35,736 nt of DNA from Synechococcus sp. 8F6 (GTDB lineage Bacteria; Cyanobacteriota; Cyanobacteriia; PCC-6307; Cyanobiaceae): contig NZ_NQKZ01000020.1 of the NCBI RefSeq assembly GCF_002252665.1, positions 1-35,736 of the forward strand, in the 5' to 3' direction. Within the stretch, counting starts at the first letter, position 1. Each line of letters opens with the position of its first letter. The notes below the pieces were generated by a model. The model was given only the letters and a program-made list of their open reading frames with translations. It ran no database searches and was not told where the DNA came from. Positions 33,599 through 35,450 of the stretch are shown piece by piece. The translations under genes and the position numbers were made by a program.

Positions 33599-35134
33599 TC
33601 AGAACTTGAAGGTGGTCTTCAGCACGACGCCGTAGGTGTCCTCGTTGCGAGGACCGCCTGTAGCGGAAAGGTCTACACCACCGCCATCAATCCAGAAGAA
33701 GCCAGGAGTCACACTGATGTTGTCAGTGACCTGGAACTTGTACCACACCTCAATGCCGAACTTCTCTTGGAGAGTATCAGCAACCGCGCTGTTGTTGATG
33801 GTGCCAGCGATATTGGTGGGGGCGTGACCCAAACCGATCCCGAAGGCGTTGCCCTTCATGAAGGCATCATCCCACTGAAGGCCAACCATCCACGACCAGG
33901 AGTCGTCGTTGGGGTTGGAACCATTCCACTGGGAGGCACCGAAGCCGGCGCTGATGGAAGGGATCAAACCGGACTCTTCAGGCTGCCAGTAGGCACTGAA
34001 GCCGTAGTTGTTAGAACCAACTGCTGAGTAAGTACCGCCCGCGTTTGCGATGTTGGCAGCTTCAATGTAGTTGTAAACAATCGCAGCGCCCCAGTTGTTG
34101 GCGGAATAGCCAACCTGAATCGTGGTGGTGCTGCCATCACCGAAACCGCCGCCGATGGTTGTACCAGCAGTTGTACCAACTCCGTTATTGGTACCAACTT
34201 CAGCCGAGGCTTCGTTGGACACGTAGTTGGCACTGAGGCTAAAGCCGTCCTTCTCATACCAGAGGCCAACACCAGCGCCAAGGTTCAGGCTGTAGGCGTT
34301 GTTGGCACCGCCGTAGGTGAAGCGATCGAGGATCGAATCAGCCGGATACACGCTCGGCCACATGGCCAGCATGTCGTCTTGGCGCACCTTGCCGCCGAAG
34401 GTAGCAGTGAAGTTTTCGCCGATCGGGAACTGATAGAAGAGGCGGTCGATCGAAACCACATCAGGACCAGCTTCCTCCTGGAAAGCCACTTCCATCAGGG
34501 TGTTGCCACCGCCGAAGGCGGACTCACCGAAGTTGCCAGCACGCAGGGTGGTGCGCAGCAGATCCTTGCCGGTGAAGCTGGTGTCGAGGATCAGGCGAAC
34601 GTCATAGTTAAACGACACCTGCTCGGCTTGCTCGGTGACGGTATCTGGATTCACCGCAGCGGATGCACCGCCGACCACGAAGGTGGCGATACCCTTCAGC
34701 TTGGTGGTGGTGGAGAACTGGTTGGCTTCCAGTTCGCCCACTTTGGCCTCAAGACCGTCCACGCGGCCCTTGAGGATGGCGAGTTCCTTCTCGAACTCGG
34801 CCATCAGCTTCTTGAGCTCGTCGGTCACTTCGGTGACGCGGTCGAGGCAAGCGTTGAGAAGAGCAGCTGCTTCGAAGCGGGTCATGGCCCGGCCACCCTT
34901 GTAGGTGCCGTCGGGGTAACCAGCGACGCAGCCGTAGCGCTCGATCAGGTTGGATAGAGCCTGGTAAGCCCAGTCGGTGGGCTTGACGTCAGAGAACTGG
35001 GAGATGCTGGTGACTTGCTCCTCGGAGGCATACTTGTTGACGCCGTCCAGGTTGAGCTCAGCTGCGGTAGCGGCCACGGGGGCCAGCAGACCGAGGGCTG
35101 CAGGTGCAACCAGGAGTTGCTTAAAGAGTTTCAT
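33599..35134 (-). CDS. Cyanobacterial porin, SLH plus OprB family (SomA-like)
   Basis: This 511-aa outer-membrane porin is of the abundant cyanobacterial type (iron uptake porin/SomA). It has, in order, a signal peptide (MKLFKQLLVAPAALGLLAPV, cut near residue 24), an SLH domain (about 42-95: QFSDVKPTDWAYQALSNLIE, AGYPDGTYKGGRAMTRFEAA) that tethers the protein to the cell wall, a heptad coiled coil (about 98-138), and a beta-barrel of the OprB type. It ends in Phe (VVLKTTFKF) as outer-membrane barrels do. The start ATG has GAGGA five bases upstream. The 489-base region upstream has a five-copy 22-bp repeat and other signals. The permeating solute is not evident. Confidence 0.93.
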   Translation of the reverse strand: MKLFKQLLVAPAALGLLAPVAATAAELNLDGVNKYASEEQVTSISQFSDVKPTDWAYQALSNLIERYGCVAGYPDGTYKGGRAMTRFEAAALLNACLDRVTEVTDELKKLMAEFEKELAILKGRVDGLEAKVGELEANQFSTTTKLKGIATFVVGGASAAVNPDTVTEQAEQVSFNYDVRLILDTSFTGKDLLRTTLRAGNFGESAFGGGNTLMEVAFQEEAGPDVVSIDRLFYQFPIGENFTATFGGKVRQDDMLAMWPSVYPADSILDRFTYGGANNAYSLNLGAGVGLWYEKDGFSLSANYVSNEASAEVGTNNGVGTTAGTTIGGGFGDGSTTTIQVGYSANNWGAAIVYNYIEAANIANAGGTYSAVGSNNYGFSAYWQPEESGLIPSISAGFGASQWNGSNPNDDSWSWMVGLQWDDAFMKGNAFGIGLGHAPTNIAGTINNSAVADTLQEKFGIEVWYKFQVTDNISVTPGFFWIDGGGVDLSATGGPRNEDTYGVVLKTTFKF

Positions 35135-35206
35135 GGGTTCCTCACACGAGATGGCGCAATGCGCCGCATACATAATCGCCGGATAACACAGCAGCGGCGT
35201 CTGCTC

Positions 35207-35322
35207 CTGTGCCAGTGCGCACAATGGCCTGTGCCAGTGCGCACAATGGCCTGTGCCAGTGCGCACAATGGCCTGTGCCAGTGCGCACAATGGCCTGTGC
35301 CACTGCGCACAATGGCCTGTGC
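35207..35322. repeat. Five tandem 22-bp repeats plus a partial sixth, upstream of the porin
   Basis: A 22-bp unit beginning CTGTGCCAGTGCGCACAA repeats head to tail at 35207, 35229, 35251, 35273 and 35295. Units 1-4 are identical; unit 5 differs by one base (CAC for CAG). A sixth unit stops after six bases (35317-35322). Each unit contains the perfect 8-bp palindrome GTGCGCAC and outer arms GCCA / TGGC. There are no spacers, so this is not CRISPR. A 22-bp period is about two helix turns, so the palindromes face one side of the DNA. The array ends 73 bases before the porin ATG, which suits an operator cluster. Confidence 0.95.
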
Positions 35323-35325
35323 TGC

Positions 35326-35365
35326 AAAAACGATGCCCCCGACGGGCACAGGGCTCGCCGGGGGC
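35326..35365 (-). terminator. Possible terminator or attenuator hairpin upstream of the porin
   Basis: A 7-bp perfect GC stem (GCCCCCG at 35335-35341 with CGGGGGC at 35359-35365) encloses a 17-base loop. On the minus strand it is followed after four bases by five T residues (35330-35326). It resembles a weak intrinsic terminator placed between the short frame at 35397-35450 and the repeat array. Confidence 0.4.
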
Positions 35366-35396: not shown

Positions 35397-35450
35397 CTAG
35401 AGGGCGTTCTCCGCGATCAGCAGACCCTGGGTGAAACAACTGGAACTCAC
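35397..35450 (-). CDS. Possible 17-residue leader peptide
   Basis: GTG 35450 opens a 17-codon frame (SSSCFTQGLLIAENAL after the start), closed by TAG. An unusually strong Shine-Dalgarno, AGGAGGAGG, lies about six bases upstream. The frame is followed by the GC hairpin and T5 described separately. The layout recalls an attenuation leader, but no run of a single amino acid or alternative fold was found, and such a short frame can occur by chance. Confidence 0.25.
   Translation of the reverse strand: MSSSCFTQGLLIAENAL

Follow-up and report, generated by a model that had tools for sequence, protein, structure and literature searches.

Tandem repeats in bacterial VNTR promoters tune expression through their copy number, and CRP uses its residue Glu181 to read the G:C pair at position four of TGTG. 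Operators of the CRP/FNR type (E. coli CRP, Synechocystis SyCRP1) have the form TGTGA-N6-TCACA. For cyanobacteria, Xu and Su (2009; PMC2633013) give crp as absent from 17 of 29 genomes and report no CRP-site signal in CC9902, RCC307, WH8102 or WH7803. A phosphate-stress regulator of the CRP family, PtrA, is described from marine Synechococcus, and a study of Crocosphaera reports both som and ptrA as phosphate-responsive (PMC12260270). Here we describe a conserved porin promoter element that is undescribed in the open literature searched and that is expanded fivefold in one lineage.

The window is one whole contig (35,736 nucleotides) of the 2.5-Mb draft genome of Synechococcus sp. 8F6 (G000), and the copy number of the array is that of this one assembled genome. 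TRF places the best tandem array of the window at 35206-35322 (period 22, 5.3 copies, 98% matches, score 227; the second-best array scores 72). It is made up of five 22-bp units and a further 7 bp, with GCACA at the distal end and GG on the gene side, and it starts about 73 bases upstream of the porin ATG (35134-35132, minus strand). The features are, from the gene outwards:

33599..35134, minus strand: porin gene, 511 aa, with SLH and OprB domains (Pfam) and in the 'iron uptake porin' por_somb family (NCBIfam)
35139..35147, minus strand: GTGTGAGGA, ribosome-binding site
35153..35165, minus strand: hairpin GGCGCATTGCGCC, where the mRNA is predicted to begin (putative start near 35165)
35172..35177, minus strand: predicted -10, GATTAT; among 34 non-redundant promoters the second base is A in 25 and the sixth is T in 26
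35195..35200, minus strand: predicted weak -35 region, a putative assignment; third base G in 33 of 34 promoters
35206-35207: GG, gene-side end of the array
35208..35229, minus strand: unit 1, closest to the gene, exact GGCCATTGTGCGCACTGGCACA, where relatives have their single element
35230..35251, minus strand: unit 2, exact GGCCATTGTGCGCACTGGCACA
35252..35273, minus strand: unit 3, exact GGCCATTGTGCGCACTGGCACA
35274..35295, minus strand: unit 4, exact GGCCATTGTGCGCACTGGCACA
35296..35317, minus strand: unit 5, outermost, one change (GCAGTGG, shared with both sister species)
35318..35322, minus strand: GCACA, what is left of a partial sixth unit at the distal end
35326..35365, minus strand: intrinsic terminator, separating the array from the upstream transcript

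The five near-perfect head-to-tail copies before an SLH-OprB porin gene, and their distance from its ATG, are as the initial annotation had them. Allowing up to three mismatches, GGCCATTGTGCGCACTGGCACA is matched five times on the minus strand, each time within the array. The rest of the window has no match, and 100 shuffles give none. The annotation had also put the palindrome GTGCGCAC in every copy, which holds for the four inner units but not for the outermost, where the plus strand has CTGCGCAC instead; TGTGC-N6-GCACA and GTG-N8-CAC are present in all five. The palindrome occurs at 93 places genome-wide, four of them inside the array (reversed control, nine), and is therefore over-represented beyond it; on this count we rejected it as the regulator motif. 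The core TGTGNGCANTGGCACA, in contrast, is found at five places in the genome, all in the array, and we rejected a dispersed repeat family of the REP, MITE or STRR kind on this ground and on the model search below, in which 150 candidates per genome were scored.

The porin orthologues of the two sister species (G008 and G014) and of G001, G005, G006 and G012 are preceded by one copy at the same place, as are those of G015, G013, G004 and G003, and in both sister species the copy is not a perfect palindrome. Of 16 genus genomes 10 have the core TGTGNGCANTGGCACA, G000 in five copies and nine others in one copy apiece; eight of these nine copies precede this porin, and that of G011 is within an unrelated ORF, permease-like by eye. 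Exact matches to the element were sought without success in four genus genomes that are 82-88% complete (G002, G007, G009 and G010). In the porin promoter of G011 (L172/L034) just the right half is kept, TGGCACAGG, and over the left half lies what we take to be a Fur/Zur-like box; a possible reading is a natural rewiring in which the right half was retained. We note that the G011 porin adjoins a Fur-type gene, as judged by eye.

A search with model R1 gave 15 places at E <0.09 in 11 of the 16 genus genomes, all before this porin, besides six weaker places (E 0.2-1.9); 150 of 452-1117 candidates were scored per genome, so that weak sites may be missed. The model leans to the full element, since four promoters with a degenerate left half (L141, L172, L179 and L192) were left out of it. 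Within G000, where 150 of 741 candidates were scored, it finds no place beyond the array up to E 10. The initial annotation named a spread over many unrelated loci as evidence against a promoter function, and the candidates scored show no such spread. The looser TGTGN8CACA has 14 exact sites in G000 besides the array, and of the 10 examined, nine are inside an ORF (mechanical calls, 100 aa or longer), one of the nine also lying immediately ahead of a porin paralogue. A second porin of G000 has a TGTGN8CACA beginning 113 bp before its ATG. A porin paralogue at C10:33000-34000 (L031) follows a zinc ABC-transporter binding protein-like gene (by eye), and TGAGAATCGTTATCA between the two is presumably a Zur-like box.

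The element extends well beyond the genus. We collected porin promoters in 300 family genomes by their leader only (hairpin GCGCATTGCGC followed by GTGTGAGGA), a pattern found at 64 places in 60 genomes with no match for the reversed control; addition of G006 gave 65 promoters in 61 genomes. All 65 lead into a porin-like start by a permissive test (L177 ends after MK). The right half of the element, CTGKCACA with at least 7 of 8 positions matching, is present in 60 of the 65, at 76-82 bases upstream of the end of GTGTGAGGA. Five windows farther upstream have it in 1, 1, 3, 1 and 1 of the 65 promoters, the reversed motif is in place in one of 65, and 200 shuffles average 0.9 with a maximum of 4. 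Two parts of the left half, neither of which was used in choosing these 60 promoters, are in register with it: TGTG lies exactly 8 bases before CACA in 38, being absent in exact form from the other 22, and CRTTG is in place in 50. The right half is missing in register in five promoters (L167, L191, L202, L203 and L204), of which L202-L204 carry CTGGCACA upstream of the scored range, as seen by eye.

A profile of 34 non-redundant promoters, the remaining 31 of 65 being near-duplicates or without the right half, gives the conserved block GG-N-C-R-TTG-TG-N3-T-CTGKCACA. Its 22 positions hold 0.27-1.94 bits and the preceding 26 no more than 0.25, although the eight right-half columns score high partly through their use in picking the promoters; downstream of the 22 bp, position +13 (G) has 1.74 bits and +5, +11 and +12 have 0.5-0.6. 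The repeat unit of the window corresponds to these 22 positions. Conservation is asymmetric, with CATTG on the left and the inner TCTG on the right kept and their mirror positions not. This block, and not the palindrome that the annotation had proposed as a regulator motif, is what relatives share. An exact TGTGN8CACA followed after 40-70 bases by GTGTGAGGA was found in 64 of the 400 family genomes searched, spread over 17 of 59 genera (reversed control, 0), porin identity being checked for part of these places. The element is very probably a regulator site, and the resemblance of the unit to one, noted at the outset, is strengthened by its match to a conserved promoter element. A search of the open literature, which leaves subscription papers outside its range, found no description of this element or array.

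The element also keeps its distance from the gene. In unit 1 the TGTG begins 85 bases before the end of GTGTGAGGA, compared with 84-86 bases in the 10 other genus promoters of the set with an exact TGTGN8CACA, which speaks against the suggestion that the repeats had altered the spacing of the promoter. No sigma-70 consensus was found at the porin promoter, and a promoter that needs an activator would fit this. In promoters aligned on the leader hairpin, a conserved A and a conserved T have the spacing of A2 and T6 in a -10 element, from which the porin mRNA probably begins at that hairpin; a start there would put the centre of the element near -50. The predicted -10 starts 30 bases after the CACA of the proximal unit, the start position itself being a prediction. 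The Prochlorococcus proteins PMM1119 and PMM1121 are porins. We take GTGTGAGGA to be the complement of the Yfr1 core, with a putative pairing between the two. PMM1119 and PMM1121 are named as Yfr1 targets in PMC6778093.

Upstream of the array is a 17-codon ORF (MSSSCFTQGLLIAENAL, window 35397-35450, minus strand) with a strong ribosome-binding site, a leader that reaches to about 35546, a conserved hairpin before it and a terminator after it. It lies between the porin and psbD, in which the window presumably ends, the gene being named from the D2 C-terminus. Its QGLLIAEN/KGLLIAEN core is also found before porins of other genera (L151, L178, L181-L188 and L201). The two stretches searched match no Rfam family at gathering score, and in a consensus fold of 10 sequences 5 of 57 pairs have a change on both sides.

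Transcription that reads through from this side could make the array act as RNA, through long hairpins with a role in termination, insulation or cleavage, and the transcribed array has a predicted fold of -68.4 kcal/mol (z -4.38). Any tandem of a partly self-complementary unit folds strongly, however, and with a terminator just upstream of the array, a predicted start downstream of it, and single copies in relatives that cannot form a multi-unit hairpin, we regard such a role as highly improbable. Rfam gives no match over the array at gathering score; an RNA family was rejected, the sub-threshold miRNA-like scores being what a self-complementary repeat gives.

Pairs of TGTGN8CACA sites no more than 28 bp apart were found in 6 of 400 family genomes (reversed control, 2 of 400), and G000 is the sole one to have three or more in succession. 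Among the other paired genomes, G161, the one whose locus was examined, has both sites before its porin. The exact 20-base junction between units is found once each in 11 other records among 84,980 species genomes; these are titled as non-cyanobacteria, the genome studied here is possibly outside that set, and a search with one exact 20-mer would miss arrays of diverged units. A porin tree of 10 rows places G000 as sister to G008 plus G014 (support 99/98). The single copy in these sisters, together with the sole array among 400 genomes, points to a conserved promoter element that was expanded recently and in this lineage, with the proximal copy at its usual spacing, and the recent local expansion that had been offered as one of two readings thus gains in support. 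The other reading, a regulator array, is no true alternative to it, because the thing expanded is the conserved promoter element.

The one variable base gives some information on how the expansion may have run. The outermost unit has the base of both sister species, so the simpler reading takes the four inner units as derived, and the idea that the array has aged from its outer edge is not supported. An alternative is that the outer unit may have mutated, as the inner-unit base is the family majority (30 of 34 promoters).

Whether the additional copies matter is a separate question. They may be a recent, unselected minisatellite made by slippage, which the partly self-complementary sequence would help, with a functional single element and four extra copies that have no effect on the porin. 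The array is evidently young (four units identical and a fifth one base off), it is absent in the sister species, more than two copies are absent in the other 399 family genomes, and it folds strongly as a single strand, all as neutral slippage would have it; such slippage would leave the same picture as a functional expansion. The repeat period, on the other hand, matches the conserved element in length, and unit 1 keeps the usual spacing. Second TGTGN8CACA sites are also present downstream of the main element in two other promoters, L194 (G161) at 24 bp and L141 (G036) at 22 bp, although these are 2 of 65, were noticed post hoc, and in L141 the main element is a right half only. We consider neutral slippage a tentative but real candidate. 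The second sites of L194 and L141 are again about two turns from the main element.

The explanation that we favor, with moderate confidence, is a fivefold expansion of the conserved 22-bp element that raises regulator occupancy at the porin promoter. The element would be the site of a dimeric transcription factor, with TGTG-N8-CACA giving the spacing of its half-sites, and the predicted site would have its centre some 50 bp upstream of the transcription start, beside a poor -35. Slippage or unequal exchange would have added units upstream, about two helical turns apart, with the proximal copy staying put. Each copy would bind the same dimeric regulator, and several dimers could give a higher occupancy or local concentration at the promoter, so that the porin might be regulated more strongly or more sensitively than in the sister species. 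The location of the element upstream of the -35 favors an activator; were the factor a repressor, the same geometry would give tighter repression. The asymmetry of the element counts against this proposal, as a plain homodimer site would not need it. That the extra copies alter porin expression at all we hold with slightly less assurance, leaning towards an effect. A stronger version, in which selection built a cooperative array of five sites in two-turn phase that retunes a main pore of the outer membrane through an unrecognised dedicated porin regulator of the family (apparently Synechococcus, Cyanobium and Prochlorococcus), seems unlikely. It is more doubtful still that the copies are a sink that titrates a limiting regulator from other targets: five sites stand together against the 14 other exact TGTGN8CACA in the genome, but five are few, and with nine of the 10 examined other sites within ORFs there is no clear regulon to titrate from.

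The HTH_Crp_2 profile has five matches in G000. NtcA, PtrA and a pair of small CRP-like proteins account for four of them, and the fifth is below the cut-off in an ORF that is GntR-like by eye; no CRP orthologue was recognised among these matches, the profile being a general one and not a dedicated CRP model run genome-wide. The residue at the position of CRP Glu181 is, by eye, Val in NtcA, PtrA and one small protein and Pro in the other, which argues against each as a simple reader of GTG. PtrA is a possible regulator of the element. Its gene in G000 scores 352 bits (cut-off 300), and it is above the cut-off in 156 of 300 genomes and, by eye, in 11 of the 17 genera with a TGTGN8CACA-N40-70-GTGTGAGGA match. 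This co-occurrence, counted without correction for shared ancestry, fits yet does not single PtrA out, and we rejected it as decisive; the six genera without PtrA above the cut-off have one matching genome each and none of their boxes has CTGKCACA. The open literature searched yielded no PtrA binding site. The genes of the two short CRP-like regulators (L090 and L091) are at C10:43647 and C10:37348, on a contig that also has two porin paralogues. HTH_Crp_2 matches are within a few kb of porin matches in G001, G004, G005, G006, G012 and G015.

Outer-membrane porins determine what these photosynthetic bacteria take up, and a promoter element common to many genera is a handle for finding its regulator. 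The array is in effect a natural promoter mutant, and comparison with the single-copy sisters offers a direct test of retuning by operator multiplication.

Set beside known systems, the element is closest to CRP/FNR operators, with TGTG and CACA halves 8 bases apart, a spacing present in all five units and in register in 38 of 65 promoters. It differs from the CRP consensus in lacking the inner A and T, which are C and G in the array units (of 34 family promoters, 19 have C and 6 have A as the inner-left base), and in its asymmetric conservation. The predicted -10 is 30 bases downstream, compared with about 22 in the cyanobacterial CRP promoters described in PMC2633013. NtcA sites (GTA-N8-TAC) have an equal dimer spacing and NtcA is encoded in the genome, but the units have GTG/CAC where NtcA sites, as set out in PMC3898017, have GTA/TAC, and the NtcA site does not match. 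The phosphate-stress regulator PtrA likewise has its gene in G000. Between species, compared with one genome each, the copy number is one versus five. The array resembles VNTR promoters in having its tandem repeats immediately before the gene of an outer-membrane protein, and differs from them in that what is repeated looks like a conserved regulator site, where theirs is a spacer.
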